DNA of 64,000 nucleotides, taken from contig NZ_VTWT01000003.1 in NCBI RefSeq assembly GCF_008727925.1, forward strand, positions 186,001-250,000, in the 5' to 3' direction. The notes under the pieces are model-generated. The model saw only the letters and a program-made list of their open reading frames with translations, did no database searches and was not told the origin of the DNA. Of the stretch, positions 15,270 through 33,781 are shown piece after piece. Source of the DNA: Adhaeribacter soli. GTDB lineage: Bacteria > Bacteroidota > Bacteroidia > Cytophagales > Hymenobacteraceae. Made by a program: the position numbers and the translations under genes. How positions within the stretch are numbered: position 1 is the first letter of the stretch; each line of letters starts with the position of its first letter.

Positions 15270-15377
15270 GGCTTTATACTTAAAATTAAGTTGAAAGTGG
15301 TTTGCTTTTTCAGCTGAAATGATAGCGTTTCTAACCACTTTGTGCGCTCTTTACGCTCTAGTGCTCTTCCTGGTGCT

Positions 15378-15522
15378 CTTCCGGATTTGTAATCCGGAAG
15401 TAAGTAGCTGCGGATTTGTAATCCGCCTTGCACTGCTGCTTGCTACAAAGTGCTAGGCTTTTCAGCTAAAAAGTCGGATTACAAATCCGAACCTCAAAAC
15501 TTCCGGATTACAAATCCGGAAG
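15378..15522. repeat. REPIN-like cluster of four CGGATTTGTAATCCG palindromes
   Basis: Four palindromes with the core CGGATT-TGT-AATCCG or its complement: 15378-15400 (10-bp arms), 15410-15426, 15473-15490 and 15500-15522 (10-bp arms). The first two read GGATTTGTAATCC and the last two GGATTACAAATCC, so the cluster is itself an inverted repeat. A fifth copy is at 1436. There is no gene here (gap 15270-15651). At 15561-15590 the gap also holds a TTCGCTGGCGCTCAGGATGA tract that looks like another dispersed repeat. Confidence 0.85.
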
Positions 15523-15651
15523 AGCGGCATTTATATTTTCATGCTTCACTACTGTTCGCCGACAAGTTCCTTCGCTGGCGCTCAGGATGACAAAAGAGAG
15601 AAAGCTGAAAAACAGTCGAACATACGAATCTCGAAAATTCTAAAGTTCGAA

Positions 15652-25029: not shown

Positions 25030-25156
25030 TCTTTCATTTGTCTTAGTTAATCACAAAGCGTTGTTGGTTTACGATCAAAACCTTATCTTCTGATAAGAGC
25101 AAGTAACCATAGTCGTAGCTGGGGTGCTGTTCCGGCATTCCCTGCAGCTAAGCTAA

Positions 25157-25717
25157 GTGGAAAGGCGGGAGAAGGCCCGTACTCTGCCCCAGGTTCTTAG
25201 CAAAGCAGAAGTAGCAGCTTTGCTCTAGGCTACTGATAACCTAAAGTACCGCTGTTTGATGCAGCTGCTTTATTCTGAAGGCTTGAGAATAAGTGAAGTA
25301 ATAAACTTGAGGCTCACCGATGTGCAAAGTAAAAGAATTTTACGTCTGATCCGGGGAGCCAAGGGCAAAAAGGGCCGCACTACCCTACTATCGCAAAAAC
25401 TTCTACAGAGTTTAAGAGAGAATTACAGGGTATACCGGCCATAGCTATGACTCTTCGAAGCTCAAGGTGGCGGTCAGTACACTACCGAAAGTATCAGGAA
25501 TGTGTTTAATGCTAGTAAAGAAAAGGCCCGGATCAAAACCATAGCTACTCCTCATACCTTAAGACACTCTTTTGCTACTCATTTACTGGAGCAGGGAACA
25601 GATTTCAAGTACATTCAGGCAATGCTGGGTCAAAGGAGTAGTAAGACAACTGAGATCTACCCCCATATAACCACTCATGTGCTGGAGAAAATAACCAGCC
25701 GGCTGGACAATCTGTAA
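25157..25717 (+). pseudogene. Broken tyrosine recombinase / integrase
   Basis: One reading frame carries the catalytic domain of a XerC/D-like tyrosine recombinase: LPQVLSKAEVAALL, LLYSEGLRISEVINLRLTDV (catalytic Arg), IRGAKGKKGRTTLL (Lys), TPHTLRHSFATHLL (HxxR), LGQRSSKTTEIYPHI (active Tyr). It is interrupted by in-frame stops at 25226 (TAG), 25442 (TAG) and 25448 (TGA), and the N-terminal core-binding domain is missing. The ending EIYPHITTHVLEKITSRLDNL is of the Bacteroidota Xer-like type, not a canonical IntI. It is dead, but its position at the head of the cassette array and beside tRNA-Glu makes it a relic of the mobilising enzyme. Confidence 0.85.
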
Positions 25718-25877
25718 CATTTTACTATATTAGCCCAACGATGTTACTGCAACTGCTATTTACCGGTCACAATTGCTTGAAGCTTACAAAAACTGGGCTC
25801 AAAACCTACGGACATAATTCAGATAACCGAAGTAGTTTTGTTAATCTAGTAGTTGGCAGAAATTTAATAAAATAGAA

Positions 25878-27359
25878 ATGAATGCAATAAAAGCTTTACT
25901 TGAAACTGATTTTGGAAACCCAGATGGATTATATGATCCTCATTTGGAAGAATATTTCTTAGACCAAAACTACTGGGAAAATATAGTAAAAAGCAAAACC
26001 TACTTTGTTATAGGTAGAAAAGGCACGGGGAAATCAGCAATTTATAATTGGATTAAGAATAGGGAATCAGAAAAAGGAATAATTATAAGCAATCTATCAT
26101 TTAGAAGTTTTCCTTTTGAAAAACTTCTAAGGCTTTCTGATGATGATTTCACCAGACCAAACCAATACCAAAGCATTTGGAAGTATATTATCCTTAGTGA
26201 ATTTGCTAAGCAAATTGTGCTTGACCAACATACTTCTAAAAATACTGATGACTTTAAAGAACTTGTTAATTTCGTAGAGTTCCGGTTCGGAAAGAATTTA
26301 CAGGATTTACATTCTAAAATTACCACAAGAACTGATAAAACGGAAGTAGGACTTCAATTTAGAGGAATAGGGCCTAAAACAACAAGTGAAAGAGCTGTTC
26401 AGCTAGGAGATGAAATTGAAAATATTTCCGAAATTAATATAAGACTTGAAGATTTAGTTCTTTCAAATTTAAATAATAGTCAAAGAAGCTATATTGTTCA
26501 ATTTGACCAGCTTGATGATAATTACACACTGTATATAGATAATAAGAAATACTTCGAATCTCTTATAAGTTTATTTAAAATTATTTACTCCTTAAATTCA
26601 GTTATTGCTTCTTACAATCCAAATGCGAAAGTAATAGCTTATATCCGTTCAGATATTTTTTATCAATTTAGTAGTCATGACCCAGATAGTGCAAAATTCG
26701 ACTTCCATACATATTATTTAAATTGGGCTATAGTTAATAAAAATGACTGGATTAACCCACCATTACTCCAATTAATAAACAATAGGATTGAAAATAGTAT
26801 TGATGAATTATCGGGTAAAGATTCATTTAGTTTTATTTTTAATAAAACATTCATCAGGCTTTATGAAAATGGAAAGCTAATTGAGCCATTTAAATATATT
26901 ATTCATAGAACATTTCACAGACCAAGGGATTTAGTTCAATTCTGCATAAAAACAAAGGAACAAGCAGAAAAAATGAATAAGTTAGATTATCAAACCATTA
27001 AAGCAGCAGAGAAAGAATATTCAGCTTGGTTAATTGATGAACTTAAAAATGAAATTTCTCCTGTTATTCCAAGTACAGAAACTTTATTTACACTTCTTCG
27101 GACCCTCGGAACAAGAAAGTTTTCATCAAATGAATTCAAAGAGATGTTTTTATTAGGAAGGAATAAAAATATCAACAAGAGCCCAGAAGCCCTTTTGAGA
27201 TATTTATATGAACTTGGAATTATTCAAAATATCAATACTATAGATAACCGAACGGAACTATATTCAATAATAAGGAATGAAAAATCCAGCTATGAGCCTA
27301 GAATGAAGGCAATTTTACATTCTGGTTTAGTTAAAGGATTACATACATTTAGAGAATAA
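25878..27359 (+). CDS. P-loop ATPase, Sll1717-like (cassette 1)
   Basis: 493 aa. Walker A GRKGTGKSA at residues 46-54 after the start pattern LYDPHLEEYFLDQNYWENIV; a Walker-B-like IVQFDQLDDNY at about 210; a C-terminal arginine-rich HRTFHRPRDLVQFC helix typical of STAND/KAP-related Sll1717 ATPases. These are found in defence and mobile contexts; substrate unknown. The gene is strongly AT-rich compared with the core genes. It is the first unit of the array and ends 8 bp before attC-like site A. No clear recombination site was found upstream. Confidence 0.75.
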   Translation: MNAIKALLETDFGNPDGLYDPHLEEYFLDQNYWENIVKSKTYFVIGRKGTGKSAIYNWIKNRESEKGIIISNLSFRSFPFEKLLRLSDDDFTRPNQYQSIWKYIILSEFAKQIVLDQHTSKNTDDFKELVNFVEFRFGKNLQDLHSKITTRTDKTEVGLQFRGIGPKTTSERAVQLGDEIENISEINIRLEDLVLSNLNNSQRSYIVQFDQLDDNYTLYIDNKKYFESLISLFKIIYSLNSVIASYNPNAKVIAYIRSDIFYQFSSHDPDSAKFDFHTYYLNWAIVNKNDWINPPLLQLINNRIENSIDELSGKDSFSFIFNKTFIRLYENGKLIEPFKYIIHRTFHRPRDLVQFCIKTKEQAEKMNKLDYQTIKAAEKEYSAWLIDELKNEISPVIPSTETLFTLLRTLGTRKFSSNEFKEMFLLGRNKNINKSPEALLRYLYELGIIQNINTIDNRTELYSIIRNEKSSYEPRMKAILHSGLVKGLHTFRE

Positions 27360-27366
27360 AAACTAT

Positions 27367-27430
27367 TGCCAACAACGCATATGCAAAACCCTTGCTCCGC
27401 TGCGGGCTTTGCATATACTAACCGTTATGG
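27367..27430 (+). repeat. attC-like site A
   Basis: 64 bp. Left end GCCAAC, right core GTTATGG in the context CTAACCGTTATGGG. Inner arms CATATGCAAAACCC and GGGCTTTGCATATAC pair as a long imperfect hairpin with a 12-nt loop. It directly follows the stop of cassette 1. Confidence 0.65.
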
Positions 27431-27452
27431 GTAATTCAAAAGTAATAAAAGG

Positions 27453-28127
27453 ATGTTAAGAATAGAGAATGTGGAAGAATATATGCAAGCCTTTGACATA
27501 TATACTTTCATTGATTCAATAAAAGTTGTTCCATATGCTTGGAACCAGTCAAGAGTAGGAAAGGATGATTATTGGGGAGTTAATATTGGCTTTGAAAATA
27601 AAATTATTGAGGACCCATATTTTATAATTAATAGAAGTCTATCACATCCTAAACTTGGCCAAGTTTGGAGAGATTCAGGATATACCTCTGGTTCTAGGCA
27701 AGAAGAGCAAATTAAAAAAGATGGAATGAAGGACGAATGGAAAATTGCAGAAGAAGTTGAAAAAGAAATTAGAAATAACCTCCTTAATAGTTATTGCAGA
27801 AACGAACATAAACAAGTCCTTGAGACTTTCTCTAAATTAAATGAAAAAGAATTAAAGACATACCATTTTTTCATTTTTAGAGGAATAACGAATTTCATAA
27901 TTGTTCCTGATATAAGCCGTTGTGCAGGCTGTTCAAATTCTCATATTATTGATGAAGGATTTGATATAGAAAGTATTATTGGGCTTGTACAAAAAGATTT
28001 TCTCCAAGAAATAATTTTTAATTTGTTTTTAAAAGATGAAAAAAAAGAGTCTATTCAATTATCCTTCAATCAAAAACAATTTAAAGAGTTCTTAATAAAT
28101 AATGCTAATGTTTTACTCAAAAAATAG
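27453..28127 (+). CDS. Hypothetical protein, 224 aa (cassette 2)
   Basis: ATG 22 bp after site A. No signal peptide or membrane segment. A central CAGC pair (SRCAGCSNSHI) could bind metal; the rest is charged and helical (EEVEKEIRNNLLNSY, EKELKTYHFFIFRGITNFIIV). Not recognised. AT-rich, + strand, single gene between two attC-like sites, as expected for an integron cassette. Confidence 0.6.
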   Translation: MLRIENVEEYMQAFDIYTFIDSIKVVPYAWNQSRVGKDDYWGVNIGFENKIIEDPYFIINRSLSHPKLGQVWRDSGYTSGSRQEEQIKKDGMKDEWKIAEEVEKEIRNNLLNSYCRNEHKQVLETFSKLNEKELKTYHFFIFRGITNFIIVPDISRCAGCSNSHIIDEGFDIESIIGLVQKDFLQEIIFNLFLKDEKKESIQLSFNQKQFKEFLINNANVLLKK

Positions 28128-28187
28128 GATTTAAAAGATTAGAAAAAAGGCCTCAGCATTAAAAGCAAATTAAGAAATAGAACACCC

Positions 28188-28239
28188 CCACAACAAAAAC
28201 TAAAGCACATTAAAACTTACCTTAGCCCAACCGTTGGTG
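28188..28239 (+). repeat. attC-like site B (weak)
   Basis: Right core GTTGGTG in CCCAACCGTTGGTGGGCATTT, like the other sites. The left end (CCACAAC, then AAAACTAAAG) pairs only partly with it, so the site may be degenerate. The next gene starts 90 bp later. Confidence 0.45.
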
Positions 28240-28329
28240 GGCATTTAGGATATACGATCTATAATTATTTGTTTTTTTTAAAAAGCATTACAATAAATAT
28301 TAATAATCACTGAATTAACCTAAACACAA

Positions 28330-28845
28330 ATGACTAGGATATTAATGTTAATTTTTGCCTTATTTCTTACTACTGATTTAATAGCGCAGAACTGCAAATT
28401 CGAAAAGAATGAAGTAGATAAATTTACGCATAAAAAAGTTATAATTACTGAACCCTATATGATTTGGAGGGATTCATGGAGCGGTAGCAATATGACTGTT
28501 CAAGGTTATAAATCAGATTCTTTAAAATGGATTAGATTCAGGTATAGTTCAACTTCTATCTTTTCAATTCATCAGAAAAGTAAATTGATATTACTTTTTG
28601 AAGATGGTTCAACCGTAGATTTATTTAATATTGAAAGTATTGTTGCAGATCCCATTCATGCAGGTTCAATGACTCGATGGGTTGCCTTTGTTTCCTACGG
28701 TTTTACAGATGATATAGAGAAAAAAATTTTATCAAAGAAAATAACTTCCATAAGATTATACACAGCAGATGGTTATATTGACAAAGAAGTAAAAGGGAAA
28801 GACAGCAATAGCTTTAAAGACGCCATTAATTGTATTCAAAATTAA
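28330..28845 (+). CDS. Exported hypothetical protein, 171 aa (cassette 3)
   Basis: ATG with a signal peptide (MTRILMLIFALFLTTDLIAQ). The mature domain is beta-rich (ILLFEDGSTVDLFNIESIVADPI, ITSIRLYTADGYIDKEVKG) with cysteines near each end (NCKFE, NCIQN). No family recognised. It occupies a whole cassette between sites B and C. Confidence 0.6.
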   Translation: MTRILMLIFALFLTTDLIAQNCKFEKNEVDKFTHKKVIITEPYMIWRDSWSGSNMTVQGYKSDSLKWIRFRYSSTSIFSIHQKSKLILLFEDGSTVDLFNIESIVADPIHAGSMTRWVAFVSYGFTDDIEKKILSKKITSIRLYTADGYIDKEVKGKDSNSFKDAINCIQN

Positions 28846-28870
28846 AAAATATTAAATAAAGAAAAACGTC

Positions 28871-28936
28871 GGCCAACAAGGTTTAAAAACCAAACTTCAG
28901 CTTCGCCTTGTTCCCCTTTTATACTAACCGTTAGAG
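28871..28936 (+). repeat. attC-like site C
   Basis: 66 bp. Left end GGCCAAC followed by AAGG; right end CCTTGTTC...CTAACC-GTTAGAG. The right flank CTAACCGTTAGAGCACATTT matches site E (AAACCGTTAGCACACATTT). It starts 25 bp after cassette 3 and the next ATG follows 12 bp after the core. Confidence 0.6.
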
Positions 28937-28948
28937 CACATTTAATTT

Positions 28949-29587
28949 ATGGCAATACATATTATCGATCACCTTGAAACTACAGAATGTGGACCAGAGG
29001 CGAATAATGGAGAGGATTACTTGCAAGAAGTATTTCTTAACCAAGGATCGATTGATGGTGCTTGTGGGCCCTACAGTATTTTCATGGGACTTTTAACATT
29101 AGGGTTAGCGGACAGAACTGAAGTAGTTGCTTACAATACAGATGGACGAAAAAGATTAGGCAAACTTATAAATAGATTAAATAATGATTACGATAGCCTA
29201 TTCAAACACGGAACCCACCTGGACGATTTGGAAAAAATACTTCAAGACAATTATGGTAGTTTAATTCACACAGAAACGAGAGAAACTAAGAATAAGGACT
29301 TAATTAATTTTACAATTCATCATTTAAGAGAAAATCACCCTGTTATTGTTGGAATTAACTTTTCAGGTGGTGGGCATTGGATGCTTGCGGTTGGATTTGA
29401 AGAAAATAATGAAAAAGGAATTTCAAGATTGTTATTTCTCGACCCTTCTGGCGATAAACCTATAGTTTTATCATGGAATTCAATTATTGATCTTAATGTG
29501 ACACAAAAAGGAAGATACCCGTTCAAATGGTGGACGAATTCATGCCATGTGCAATTTGACCAAGCTATTGCTATTTGGTGTAGATAG
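28949..29587 (+). CDS. C39/papain-like cysteine protease-type protein (cassette 4)
   Basis: 212 aa, no signal peptide. Catalytic-site pattern of a C39-like fold: GACGPYSIFMGLL (Cys39), GGGHWMLAVGF (His about 147) and LFLDPSGDKPI (Asp). In known families such proteins are cytosolic or fused peptidases or transglutaminase-like enzymes; the substrate is not evident. Single-gene cassette between sites C and D. Confidence 0.6.
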   Translation: MAIHIIDHLETTECGPEANNGEDYLQEVFLNQGSIDGACGPYSIFMGLLTLGLADRTEVVAYNTDGRKRLGKLINRLNNDYDSLFKHGTHLDDLEKILQDNYGSLIHTETRETKNKDLINFTIHHLRENHPVIVGINFSGGGHWMLAVGFEENNEKGISRLLFLDPSGDKPIVLSWNSIIDLNVTQKGRYPFKWWTNSCHVQFDQAIAIWCR

Positions 29588-29657
29588 AAAAGATAAAAAT
29601 AAAATGGTATAATTTGTGGCTTAAAAAGTCAGAAAACAGTCTGAAATAAAACACAAG

Positions 29658-29789
29658 CTCTAACCAAAGCTTCACGCCAGTCAGGTTATCGTGCCATTTG
29701 AAATTTTGTTAACCTTCAATAACTAAAAACCAATAGGTCACTAATCTTCAGGCAAGTTTCCCGCCCGTCGCAAAGCCCAACCGTTAGCG
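29658..29789 (+). repeat. attC-like site D
   Basis: 132 bp. Left CTCTAAC (29658-29664), right GTTAGCG (29783-29789) in CCCAACCGTTAGCGGTCAGTTT; the outer 7-mers are complementary at 6 of 7 positions. The next arms, CAAAGCTTCACGCC and GGCGG..GTCGCAAAGC, pair imperfectly. The length matches sites E and F. Confidence 0.7.
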
Positions 29790-29876
29790 GTCAGTTTAGG
29801 GCGACACCTAAAAACTAAAATTTCACATACGGAAACTAAACAATGACAAGACAGAAACACAAAAGAATTTAACCTA

Positions 29877-30992
29877 ATGAGGGGGAAGAATAAACTGCTA
29901 CTAACAATGGAAATTCCAGCATTTCGTCGATACTACGCAACCGAGCGAGATATGACCTCAGCTCAACTTGTGTTTTACAAAGAGGTAAAGAAAAGCCTAT
30001 CCAAAGGAACATACATTAATGTGGACGGCAACATTAGTTATGTGTTTGCTTACACATCGGAATTATTAGCTAATTGGGGAGAAAAAGGTTTTGAAAATCT
30101 TAGTGAGTTCTTGTTATACTTGTCTGAATTATATTTTCACGAAAAAGATTTATCAGACTATTGCAAGTATTGGGCATATGATTGTTTGCTTGGGTTAGGA
30201 AAATATGAAGAATACTTAGAAAAAACCGAACCTCAAGAAGCGTACGGCACATTAACTCACATGTCTAATTTACGCCTAAATATTCAACGCCACATAAACG
30301 TAGAGGCTAATCCTTTAGACCTTTTACTTATGGCTGGTGGACGGAAAACAAAAATCATTAAGTCTAATCACATTTTATACAAAGACAAAGTGAGAAAAGT
30401 TTTTTCAGAGTATGGAAGCAATAATGGAGGTTGGTTTAAGATATTTGAAAAATGGCAGACTAATTTTCATTTGTATGAACATTCACTTTTTAATGGTGCG
30501 CCTATTTGGAATTCGCCCAAAATAAATTTGAAAACAGAATGCTTTTACAGTATAAATGAATACCTAAATCTTTCAAAAGAACTTTCTAAGACAGCCGAAA
30601 ACCAAACAAGAGAGGATTTAGGAATTCCATTGATTGGCGAAGGATGGGTATCTGAAACAGAATTATTCAGAAAGTTAGAAACTCACTTTGCTCAAACCAA
30701 AGTAATGCAACACGGACAACCAATTTGGTTAGGAAGACAACATTATGACATTTGGTTTCTTATTTGGAAGATTGCAATCGAATATCACGGGAAGCAACAC
30801 TTCGAACCTGTTGAATTCTTTGGAGGCGAAGTAGCCTATTTGAAAAATGTTGAGAGAGATGAGAGGAAAATAAAACTATCAAAAAAGAATGGGATAAAGT
30901 TTATTGTTGTTACAGAAGGTTATCATTTATCAGACGTGATTACTGAAATAGAAACGCATATTTCTAAAAGAAACATCACAAGTCCCAACTGA
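29877..30992 (+). CDS. TerB_N-like protein with a C-terminal nuclease-like domain (cassette 5)
   Basis: 371 aa. The N-terminal half (TSAQLVFYKEVKKSLSKGTY, SYVFAYTSELLANWG) resembles the TerB_N domain. The C-terminal ~110 residues look like a Vsr/PD-(D/E)XK-type nuclease: GRQHYDIWFLIWKIAIEYHG with D and E, then KQHFEPVEFFGG, RDERKIKLSKKNGIKFIVV. TerB_N-plus-nuclease architectures occur in stress and defence loci, so an anti-phage role is possible. AT-rich, single cassette between D and E. The ATG at 29877 is used. Confidence 0.6.
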   Translation: MRGKNKLLLTMEIPAFRRYYATERDMTSAQLVFYKEVKKSLSKGTYINVDGNISYVFAYTSELLANWGEKGFENLSEFLLYLSELYFHEKDLSDYCKYWAYDCLLGLGKYEEYLEKTEPQEAYGTLTHMSNLRLNIQRHINVEANPLDLLLMAGGRKTKIIKSNHILYKDKVRKVFSEYGSNNGGWFKIFEKWQTNFHLYEHSLFNGAPIWNSPKINLKTECFYSINEYLNLSKELSKTAENQTREDLGIPLIGEGWVSETELFRKLETHFAQTKVMQHGQPIWLGRQHYDIWFLIWKIAIEYHGKQHFEPVEFFGGEVAYLKNVERDERKIKLSKKNGIKFIVVTEGYHLSDVITEIETHISKRNITSPN

Positions 30993-31106
30993 AAAATGGC
31001 ATTTTTTTCGGCATTATATTTAAGGCTGTATAAGTTGTGTTTTGCGGTGTAGTATGCCCAAAAATGAGCAGAAAAAACGGCATTGACGAAAGGATAAAAT
31101 CCAAAC

Positions 31107-31236
31107 CACTAACTGCGGCTTAGCGCAAGTGGGTTGACGTTCTCCGTTTGACAGATACTCGTAAATTTAAACATACGGCTTCGCAGAAAGTTGGGTGGTA
31201 AAATCCCTGCCTGCGCCAAGCCGCAAACCGTTAGCA
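31107..31236 (+). repeat. attC-like site E (best example)
   Basis: 130 bp. R'' CACTAAC (31107-31113), L'' TGCGGCTTAGCGCA, then a long variable terminal structure, L' TGCGCCAAGCCGCA, spacer AACC, R' GTTAGCA (31230-31236). The two 14-nt arms are complementary except at one position (A in one, C in the other), as expected for a folded attC. Confidence 0.8.
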
Positions 31237-31388
31237 CACATTTAAAAAATAGAAAAAATATGAGCAGTTGTATTTTATGTTCAATAGAGTTGAAATTTAT
31301 GAATACTCCAACCTTCGGCGCAGGTGTAAGTACCCCATTTTCAGGACAGTTCAAAAGTAGACTTTTTAAAAATCAACTACTACCACTA

Positions 31389-32279
31389 CTATGAAGTGGG
31401 AATGTGGTAAACCTTTTGGTCTGGCCTTGCGAGGCTGGTCAGGTTTTCCATATTTCCACTTCCTTTTTTTAGCGGCCATTCTTTTGGCGTGTGGTTTGCC
31501 AGCGCTTCGTGCGGCCTCTGGGTATTGTAATGCTCTATCCAATCATTTGTCAGCTGCCGGACCTCATCCAAGTCAAAGAAAAGGTAACTATCGAGTATCT
31601 CCCGGCGATAACTGCCGTTGAAGCGTTCGATAAAGCCATTCTGCATCGGCTTGCCCGGCTGGGTAAACTGTATGCCGATCCTTTCTTTTTCACACCATAA
31701 GGTAAAGTCTGCGCTGGTAAACTCCGGACCGTTGTCTACTCTGATAGTTTTGGGCTTTCCCCGCCAGTCTATAAGCTGCTCCAGCGTGCGGACAACGCTT
31801 TTAGCTCCGATAGAGGTAGCTACTTCAATGGCCAGCGCTTCCCGGTTACAATCATCAATCACGTTCAGGGTCCGGAACTTATTGCCCGAAGCCAGTGAAT
31901 CGCTCATAAAGTCCATGCTCCAGCTGCTATTCAGTTCCTGCTGCTGCACCAAAGGCTGTTTTACCCGGGTCGGCAGCCGGCGCTTACCTCTTCTCTTCTT
32001 ATTTAGCTTCAGCAGCTTATAGACCCGGTACACGCGCTTGTGGTTCCAGGCATTGCCCTTCCTTCGCAGGCAAGAGAGCAGCTTTCTGAAGCCATAGGCC
32101 GGATGCGCAGTAGCCAGTTCCTGCAAGGCGGTGATTACTTCTGAATCATCCCGGCAGCTTTTATAATAGTACTTCGAGCGAGATAGCCCGCTTAAGCTGC
32201 AGGCCCTGGTAACCGATAAGCTATGCTCGGAGACAAGTTCATCCGCTAAAGCTTTTTGCTGCCAGGGCCCCAGCCTTTT
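31389..32279 (-). CDS. IS3-family transposase OrfB (DDE, frameshift-expressed)
   Basis: About 296 codons open in the -1 frame relative to orfA, with no start of its own near the junction (the first ATG is at about 32126). HTH_21-like N-terminus (LSVTRACSLSGLSRSKYYYK), then the rve integrase core: first Asp in SWSMDFMSD, second in IRVDNGPEFTS, Glu in QNGFIERFNGSYR. The product OrfAB cuts and joins the IS ends. The A7 tract (minus strand; T7 at 32276-32282) is the likely slippery site. Confidence 0.9.
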   Translation of the reverse strand, partial: KRLGPWQQKALADELVSEHSLSVTRACSLSGLSRSKYYYKSCRDDSEVITALQELATAHPAYGFRKLLSCLRRKGNAWNHKRVYRVYKLLKLNKKRRGKRRLPTRVKQPLVQQQELNSSWSMDFMSDSLASGNKFRTLNVIDDCNREALAIEVATSIGAKSVVRTLEQLIDWRGKPKTIRVDNGPEFTSADFTLWCEKERIGIQFTQPGKPMQNGFIERFNGSYRREILDSYLFFDLDEVRQLTNDWIEHYNTQRPHEALANHTPKEWPLKKGSGNMENLTSLARPDQKVYHIPTS

Positions 32280-32536
32280 TTTGTGATCACTTCCTTGAGA
32301 ATAGCATGATCCAGGCTCAGGTCATCGAACATCTTCTTGAGCCGCTGGTTTTCTTCCTCCAGTTCTTTGAGCCGCTGCACATCCGAGGCTTCCATACCTC
32401 CGTAACGGCTCTTCCACTTGTAAAAGGCCGCACGGCTGATCTCAAGCTCACGGCAAATGTCCTCGGCCTTACGGCCTGCTTCGTGCTCCTTTAAAGCCTT
32501 TACGATCTGGCTTTCGGTAAATCTTGTCTTTTTCAT
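32246..32536 (-). CDS. IS3-family transposase OrfA
   Basis: 96 aa. Helix-turn-helix TTFTE-like start (MKKTRFTESQIVKALKEHEA), RAAFYKWKSRYGG, then a leucine-zipper-type coiled coil (RLKELEEENQRLKKMFDDLSLD) and LKEVITKK. It overlaps orfB by 34 bp; translation through the A7 tract with a -1 shift would yield the OrfAB transposase. Confidence 0.92.
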   Translation of the reverse strand: MKKTRFTESQIVKALKEHEAGRKAEDICRELEISRAAFYKWKSRYGGMEASDVQRLKELEEENQRLKKMFDDLSLDHAILKEVITKKGWGPGSKKL

Positions 32537-33291
32537 CTTAACAGTTTAAAATTAAACATTTCTGTCTACTTTTAAACTGTCTCAGTTTTAGGGATACTTA
32601 CACAGGAAAACTAAGTGACGGAGGAGTAGTATGTATGTCCTGTTACAAGAGAATTAACAAAGCTAATCCAAGTGTAGCATTTAAGTTGAAAAAGCATTCA
32701 CTTGTCGACATTCAAAATCTTTTACAAGAAAAAGTAGTTGAGGACAGATCAAAGAATTCAAGATTAGAAGAAATCAAAGCTGAAATAAAAAGTCTAAACT
32801 TAGACAATATTTCAACTTTTTTTGGGAGAAAAGAAATTAATGAATTGCCGAATATATTAGCTCATAACGAAAAAATAGACAATATTATACAAGGGACTTA
32901 TAATAAGGGACAAGGAATTCTAGTATCAACTAATAGACGTTTAATATTTATTGACAAAGGATTATTATATGGTCTAAAAGTAGAGGATTTTCCACTTGAC
33001 AAGATAAGTTCTATTCTATATGAAACAGGATTAATTTTTGGAACTGTAAAAATCCATACTACAGGCAATATTGCGACTATTGAGAATGTGGAAAAGTCTT
33101 CAGCAAGAAAATTCGCTGAATTCGTAAGAGATAAATCATCTAGGCCCAAAGATCCAGCAACTCAGATTAAGCCAGAACCAAGCATACTTGACCAGCTTGA
33201 GAAGCTTGGTAAACTAAAAGAAAATGGAATATTGACAGACTTAGAGTTTAGCGAGCAAAAGAAAAAATTGCTTGAAAAATTATAAAACGCA

Positions 33292-33420
33292 CACTAACAA
33301 TGACTATACAGTAGTTTGGTTTTAATCCGGTAGTTACTGCATTACTTTTTGCAAGCGGTCATCAGGTAGTTATGTCCTGCGGACTGCCTCCCAGCCGACC
33401 GCATAGCGAACCCGTTAGGC
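33292..33420 (+). repeat. attC-like site F
   Basis: 129 bp. Left CACTAAC (33292-33298, the same 7-mer as site E), right GTTAGGC (33414-33420) in GAACCCGTTAGGCACCAATT. The outer 7-mers are nearly complementary; the interior has further palindromic parts (GCAAGCGGTC...GCCGACCGC). The next ATG follows after 10 bp. Confidence 0.65.
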
Positions 33421-33430
33421 ACCAATTAAC

Positions 33431-33781
33431 ATGAAATACAAACTTTTTCTTGACGATATAAGGACTGTAGAAATGGTATATTCCAACCTAACTGACGAAG
33501 ACTTTATTATTGTTAGGAATTTTGAGGATTTTAAATCTACAATCCTGCAAAAGGGGTTGCCAGGTTACATTAGCTTTGACAATGACCTAGGGTTAGACAC
33601 AAATGGCAATATTGCACCAGACGGATATGCAGCTGCAAAATGGTTAGTATATGACTCAGGATTAGACCTGTCCGAACTTAAGTTTTATGTGCATTCCGCA
33701 AATCCGGTTGCAGCCAGTCAAATACAAGGGCTTCTAGATAATTACATAATATTTTTAAAGAATGAAAACAACGATGATTAG
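33431..33781 (+). CDS. Cyclic-phosphate-processing receiver-like protein (cassette 7)
   Basis: 116 aa. Matches the cREC-like receiver family by LFLDDIRTVEM, FEDFKSTILQKGLPGYISFDNDLG, APDGYAAAKWLV and FYVHSANPVAASQI. These small Rossmann-like proteins keep the acidic pair (DD) and are predicted to process cyclic phosphates, often beside RNA-repair or defence genes. Last unit of the array; no attC-like site follows before junction M. Confidence 0.7.
   Translation: MKYKLFLDDIRTVEMVYSNLTDEDFIIVRNFEDFKSTILQKGLPGYISFDNDLGLDTNGNIAPDGYAAAKWLVYDSGLDLSELKFYVHSANPVAASQIQGLLDNYIIFLKNENNDD

Follow-up and report, generated by a model that had tools for sequence, protein, structure and literature searches.

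A putative attC-like recombination site and its cassette array in an integron-like element of Bacteroidia

Sequence comparison within one genome and among its relatives indicated that site E, an imperfect inverted repeat downstream of an ORF, is very probably the recombination site (an attC analogue) of a mobile cassette in a Bacteroidia integron-like element, for which a recombination cycle is proposed below. Site E closes the fifth of six cassettes in the window, which denotes the whole 64,000-nucleotide stretch analysed.

Site E and its array in the window

The window lies on contig C10 of a genome of 5.0 Mb; in it, tRNA-Met and tRNA-Glu precede a recombinase pseudogene. This pseudogene shares 68% identity with the intact recombinase encoded on contig C8 of the same genome, is interrupted by one TGA, two TAG and one TAA, and matches TIGR02249 in two pieces (82–179 and 241–315) with the middle absent. 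It is followed by an attI-like site, with a predicted crossover at G25852|T25853 in TCTAGTA-GTTGGCAGAAATTTA, 135 nt past the recombinase stop, and then by six consecutive units of an ORF and a hairpin spanning 25853–33414 (Table 1). The cassette 1 ORF encodes a P-loop ATPase of the Sll1717 family that weakly resembles an anti-phage protein model, and the cassette 6 ORF encodes a Cys-rich protein with a bacterial PH domain (bPH_3) and SHOCT. PADLOC returned weak matches for the cassette 5 protein only (SngA, 2e-7; pVip, 0.009) and none for the other window cassettes; in relatives, the cassette 5 protein gave domain-level matches only, in five other genomes, which are uninformative on mobility. 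The IS3-family element, with a CAGG target duplication, breaks the cassette 6 ORF near its start and is outside the integron machinery, and the array seems truncated after site F. The dead recombinase, the drifted R''/R' matches (22/30, with the lowest value in cassette 6) and the insertion sequence in that cassette are fitting for a relic array.

Table 1. Predicted features of the array in the window. Own-start match: agreement of the reverse complement of R'' with the start of its own cassette.
Feature	Positions	Strand	Remarks
Tyrosine recombinase pseudogene	25115–25717	+	covers the C-terminal ~200 aa, with four internal stop codons; related to the intact C8 recombinase
attI-like site	25807–25862	+	same position and motif as after intact recombinases
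Cassette 1	25853–27424	+	ORF 25878–27359; own-start match 4/5
Site A, attC-like	27367–27430	+	64 nt; bottom-strand T.G wobble at +14
Cassette 2	27425–28233	+	ORF 27453–28127; own-start match 4/5
Site B	28188–28239	+	52 nt; weak stem
Cassette 3	28234–28930	+	ORF 28330–28845; own-start match 3/5
Site C	28871–28936	+	66 nt; weak stem
Cassette 4	28931–29783	+	ORF 28949–29587 (C39-peptidase-like, weak); own-start match 5/5
Site D	29658–29789	+	132 nt; A/G at +9, +14, +18
Cassette 5	29784–31230	+	ORF 29877–30992 (371 aa); attC = site E
Site E, attC-like	31107–31236	+	boxes read from sequence; 3' site of cassette 5
Site E, R''	31107–31113	+	CACTAAC
Site E, L''	31114–31127	+	TGCGGCTTAGCGCA
Site E, loop	between L'' (31114–31127) and L' (31212–31225)	+	
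Site E, L'	31212–31225	+	TGCGCCAAGCCGCA
Site E, spacer	31226–31229	+	AACC
Site E, R'	31230–31236	+	GTTAGCA; crossover G31230|T31231
Site E, conserved A	31240	+	+10 after crossover G
Cassette 6	31231–33414	+	ORF from 31260, IS-disrupted, resumed to 33285; own-start match only 2/5
IS3-family insertion sequence	31325–32602	-	inside cassette 6; transposase ORFs 32246–32536 and 31389–32126
Site F	33292–33420	+	129 nt; A/G at +9 and +11
Start of last cassette	33415–33781	+	cREC_REC ORF 33431–33781; own site not recognisable

The boxes R'', L'', L' and R' that the preliminary description had reported between 31107 and 31236 were all confirmed in place. The two L arms are paired at 13 of 14 positions. 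The odd base, previously taken for one extrahelical position, proved to be a one-for-one A/G discordance between arms of 14 nt each: the left-arm A lies opposite a right-arm C, so that the top strand has an A.C mispair here and the bottom strand a T.G wobble. Another A/G discordance occurs at +14, and the arm alignment revealed no bulge or extrahelical base in the R''L'' arm. The R–L spacers are 0 nt, where the L stem abuts R'', and 4 nt, leaving no two-sided open central spacer. The label of a near-textbook attC was therefore too strong for a site without extrahelical bases or a two-sided central spacer, whose cognate recombinase lacks the IntI-specific insertion. Site E was assigned to the long one of three site-length classes.

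Bottom-strand folding, which had been suggested as a check, was carried out: the full R+L helix was present in the bottom-strand MFE and centroid structures and absent from the top-strand MFE, and the bottom-strand z-score was -1.45 (15 of 200 shuffles as good; top strand, -2.41). The fold energy was -22.8 kcal/mol for the bottom and -20.8 kcal/mol for the top strand, and folding a slightly shortened segment gave R-box pairing probabilities of 0.87 and 0.74, respectively. The z-scores are modest, and fold energy is not diagnostic as a stand-alone test of site E. A tRNA-like element, which had been named as an observation that would speak against recombination, was looked for as well, and neither tRNA nor Rfam searches returned any tRNA or family overlapping site E.

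Taken alone, site E was within chance: inverted repeats of 14 bp with at most one mismatch and a loop of 20–130 nt numbered 2.05 on average in shuffles of the window (maximum 8), so that about two are expected in each window by chance. The hairpin by itself is therefore weak evidence, compelling only together with its neighbours and relatives. It had been ranked as the strongest single piece of evidence; it is far outweighed by the complementarity of R'' to its own cassette start and by an identical cassette present in two families. Together with cassette chains in relatives and a bottom-strand bias, these two observations strongly support reading the repeats as sites of recombination rather than as terminators.

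The loops of sites A, C and E, and of six of the nine C8 sites, carry GCTNCGC on the top strand, corresponding on the bottom strand to d(GCGNAGC), an unusually stable DNA mini-hairpin. As a candidate general site feature this apical motif was rejected, being enriched (15 versus 5 shuffled) yet not general.

Cassette structure, arrays in relatives and cassette movement

Once a cassette is integrated into an integron, its opening bases and its R'' stem from one circular molecule, and R'' should therefore be complementary to its own cassette start rather than to that of the following cassette. This relationship was evaluated in 15 hand-annotated cassettes, comprising the six in the window and nine on contig C8, which carries an intact 525-aa recombinase, an attI-like site and these nine cassettes. 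Of the 75 positions after GTT, R'' agreed with its own start at 65 and with the next start at 31. Permuted partners gave a mean of 33.5 ± 4.4 and a maximum of 56, and none of 100,000 permutations reached 65/75. The matching was nearly perfect in the C8 array and had drifted in the window array, as given above; for cassette 5, the reverse complement of R'' (GTTAGTGG) matched its own start (GTTAGCGG) at 4/5 and the next start at 2/5. As judged from the sequences, own-start complementarity is the decisive evidence for the cassette reading, showing both a cassette structure and a circular history.

The conserved R' motif alone, searched genome-wide, performed barely better than a reversed-pattern control. 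A first stem detector was noisy and strand-symmetric and gave way to a cassette-chain test. In this test, units with exact 8-mer self-complementarity and a stem are chained by dynamic programming. At least two chained cassettes, and up to 16, were found in 28 of 40 loci of relatives, whereas with scrambled decoy matching at most 3 of 40 loci reached two. Among 80 named loci, at least two cassettes lay downstream of the recombinase in 16 and upstream in none, with none in decoys; the positive loci include Rufibacter, Arundinibacter, Algibacter, Lutibacter, Winogradskyella, Flavobacterium, Zunongwangia and Saccharibacillus. The same test detected the arrays beside canonical IntI of the same phylum, indicating that the method is sound. 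The longest ORF lay on the + strand in 181 of 206 cassettes. Moreover, the first unit often began approximately 50–150 nt from the recombinase stop, at a motif that, with A, T or C preceding GTT, is unlike the cassette sites. Position and motif thus place a putative attI site next to the recombinase gene, as expected.

Many contigs of relatives stop close to the recombinase, so the frequency of arrays is uncertain, and arrays are likely undercounted. The assemblies of L078, L085, L086, L089, L099, L102, L105 and L110 break a few kb downstream of the recombinase, probably owing to repeated sites that defeat short-read assembly.

In an order-level sample, homologues of the C8 recombinase were present in 127 of 291 genomes at E <= 1e-30, a count that may include more distant recombinases. 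In a sample of class Bacteroidia, 127 of 247 genomes carried the recombinase (E <= 1e-50 to a family member), and a single one carried canonical IntI above the cut-off. Canonical IntI occurred in 105 of 395 genomes of a phylum sample, almost all of them outside Bacteroidia. Related recombinases with short cassette chains were also observed in Saccharibacillus and Paenibacillus (L175 and L176), so the system is not confined to Bacteroidota.

Evidence of movement came from a 1015-bp cassette that was 100% identical in two genomes of different families, G140 (L076, 3145–4160, reverse complement) and G105 (L111, 8508–9523). The identical stretch opens with the first base past the G of G|TT and closes on the G in the next site; beyond it, only TTA is common to both genomes and the flanks are unrelated, which shows the G|TT boundaries at the sequence level. 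This cassette is the first of its array, directly at attI, in the single-contig genome G140 and the sixth in G105. Its ORFs, named by eye from the sequence, we take to be MerT/MerP-like. It was the only inter-family identical cassette found, and as read from these two loci it shows that cassettes move as discrete units, with one inter-family transfer. In addition, a plasmid search with this cassette recovered only a 72-nt piece resembling a family site, on the Adhaeribacter radiodurans plasmid NZ_CP055152.1 (108495–108567), hinting at plasmid-borne cassettes.

Recombinase relatives and site grammar

The C8 recombinase scored 196.5 bits against TIGR02249, below the curated cut-off of 265, and no match above this cut-off was found anywhere in its own genome. 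Residues 182–249 of IntI4 (2A3V), 68 in number, align to only 25 residues of the C8 recombinase (430–454), and TIGR02249 model positions 180–244 are skipped. The IntI-specific catalytic-domain insertion was likewise absent from 16 of 16 aligned relatives, and the catalytic R-K-H-R-H-Y residues and a C-terminal SPLD-like motif are kept in the C8 recombinase and its relatives. The best fold match was the IntI4 structure 2A3V. Furthermore, a quick tree, which does not distinguish a nested from a sister position of IntI, split IntI and the insertion-less family from host Xer (98% SH-aLRT). By these comparisons, the recombinase is related to IntI and is missing the insertion.

Sites of this family (n = 164) were compared with 32 canonical IntI sites of the same phylum. 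An extra base in the R''L'' arm was present in 37/164 family sites, in contrast to 32/32 canonical sites, where the extra bases cluster near +7/8 and +12 to +16; the canonical sites are nearly without mismatches (11 in all over the 32). In family sites, transition-type mismatches were strand-polar, with the wobble on the bottom strand in 241 cases and on the top strand in 19; A/G made up 236 of the 241 bottom-strand wobbles, clustered at +9 and +14. This wobble polarity, shown here by sequence alignment, was not imposed by site selection or alignment scoring. With DNA parameters, the bottom strand was predicted to be more stable in 151 of the 164 family sites (mean -2.84 kcal/mol, P 5e-25), showing a folding bias that was not seen in random segments of the same loci; canonical controls had the same strand direction, more weakly (20/32, P 0.07). 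The spacers of family sites have medians of 3 and 6 nt, and site lengths fall into the three classes mentioned above. Moreover, A occupied position +10 after the crossover G in all 164 family sites and in 15 of 15 hand-annotated ones, versus 10 of 32 canonical sites. This invariant A+10 is not explained by hairpin pairing.

Most members of the recombinase family carry one to three N-terminal EEHEEH repeats. Because Foldseek with the full-length model returned recombinase domains only, the N-terminal part was folded separately. The repeats matched Pfam HARP (PF07443) weakly in 7 of 16 members (best E 1.2e-5), and a profile search gave as its top match 4O66 (SMARCAL1 HARP), also weak (E 0.0033). 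Foldseek matched XPB with a probability of 0.99, though with an E of 0.11, and the Z of 6.6 for XPB was middling. These matches are suggestive of a resemblance to SMARCAL1 HARP and to the XPB damage-recognition and MutS mismatch-recognition folds. The idea that the HARP-like repeats read the wobbles was weakened by L101, a locus with a 285-aa recombinase without a HARP repeat in which the wobble polarity is nonetheless present; the repeats are thus not required for this polarity.

Proposed cycle, rival explanations and known systems

In the cycle that we propose, the bottom strand of a site would fold into an imperfect hairpin, which would serve as the substrate of single-stranded recombination. 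An IntI-related recombinase, without the insertion and often with N-terminal HARP-like repeats, would cut at G|TT, and circular cassettes would enter a double-stranded attI 50–150 nt downstream of the recombinase gene, co-oriented with that gene. The two T.G wobbles of the L stem (+9 and +14), which stand where extrahelical bases occur in IntI sites, may be the signal that marks the strand, and the HARP-like repeats may act as readers of DNA structure that help to recognise or open the folded DNA. The recombinase beside each array presumably acts on that array, and the intact C8 enzyme might mobilise the window relic in trans. It seems fairly probable that these elements form a separate, widespread integron class in Bacteroidia and some Paenibacillaceae, with an insertion-less integrase and two fixed T.G wobbles instead of extrahelical bases. 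Such a class may represent a sister group of IntI or may stand near the state that preceded the insertion.

Inverted repeats 3' of ORFs would also be expected if the hairpins served as intrinsic terminators, or as RNA structures between genes transcribed in the same direction, and played no part in recombination, but this explanation is extremely improbable: there is no Rfam match, no T-run follows site E, and the strand of the DNA that folds better, the bottom one, is opposite in sense to the transcript. It also leaves unexplained the complementarity of R'' to the gene-distal cassette start, the invariant boxes, A+10 and the identical cassette cut at G|TT. Dispersed transposon repeats of the MITE or REP type, separating genes by chance, would account for repeated imperfect palindromes; such an origin is scarcely credible for sites that are diverse in sequence, follow the ORF orientation described above, begin at a fixed point after the recombinase and accompany cassette self-complementarity. 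An ordinary canonical integron or CALIN, with standard attC sites and a conventional IntI, has more in common with the array, namely the YAAC/GTTR grammar, the G|TT boundary, the circular logic, the bottom-strand bias and IntI as the best structural match. We nevertheless consider it quite unlikely, given the one IntI-bearing genome among the 247 Bacteroidia and none above the cut-off in this genome, the associated recombinase without the insertion, and sites with no systematic extrahelical bases and with the A+10 difference noted above.

The Bacteroidia system shares the recombinase, adjacent attI and tandem cassettes with sedentary chromosomal integrons that carry IntI (TIGR02249), among them those of Vibrio and Treponema and the canonical arrays from further classes of this phylum, as well as the YAAC/GTTR boxes, the G|TT crossover, the cassette-start/R'' complementarity and bottom-strand folding. 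The Treponema integron also has its integrase co-oriented with the cassettes (PMC3607928). In contrast to IntI integrons, the Bacteroidia system has a sub-cut-off recombinase without the catalytic-domain insertion and with N-terminal HARP-like repeats, and its sites have fixed T.G wobbles and an invariant A+10 and no systematic extrahelical bases. The attC sites VCR and attCaadA have the same R''-L''...L'-R' layout, single-strand hairpin and strand asymmetry; attC recombines via the bottom strand, its strand choice comes mainly from extrahelical bases, and an unpaired central spacer is needed (PMC2727003). The bottom-strand bias of family sites matches that of attC, but with wobbles rather than bulges: bulges are few, and the spacers of site E are 0/4. 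By profile and fold, the N-terminal repeats match SMARCAL1 HARP (4O66), the XPB damage-recognition domain and the MutS mismatch-recognition domain, although here they are fused to a tyrosine recombinase, with no helicase.

Smyshlyaev et al. (2021) described an 'integron-like' tyrosine recombinase subgroup and regarded the insertion as essential for integron function (PMC8138268), whereas the insertion-less family nonetheless adjoins cassette arrays, an association that calls into question the necessity of the insertion for cassette recombination. The only complete integron that IntegronFinder 2.0 reported in Bacteroidetes is the one of Salinibacter ruber M1 (PMC9024848), and taxon-specific attC models include no Bacteroidota (PMC8352920); Bacteroidetes are listed among integron-bearing phyla (PMC8618304, PMC9668308), and reports are sparse. 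In the open-access papers searched, we found no description of arrays with an insertion-less recombinase, and priority is not asserted. Bacteroidia are regarded as almost devoid of integrons. Should roughly half of the species carry the recombinase, in many cases alongside arrays, then a large reservoir of mobile cassettes has escaped notice, since existing searches require the IntI insertion and canonical attC; the differences in recombinase and hairpin would conceal the system from standard integron searches. The missed pool would include the mercury-transport-like cassette that crossed families. The system also amounts to an experiment of nature, in that sites whose recombinase lacks the insertion also lack the extrahelical bases and have wobbles at nearly the same positions.

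Elsewhere in the window, strong nested inverted repeats of the GGATTTGTAATCCG type were observed at 15375–15525, with 55-nt arms that are 87% complementary; they are REP-like and unrelated to the cassette sites.
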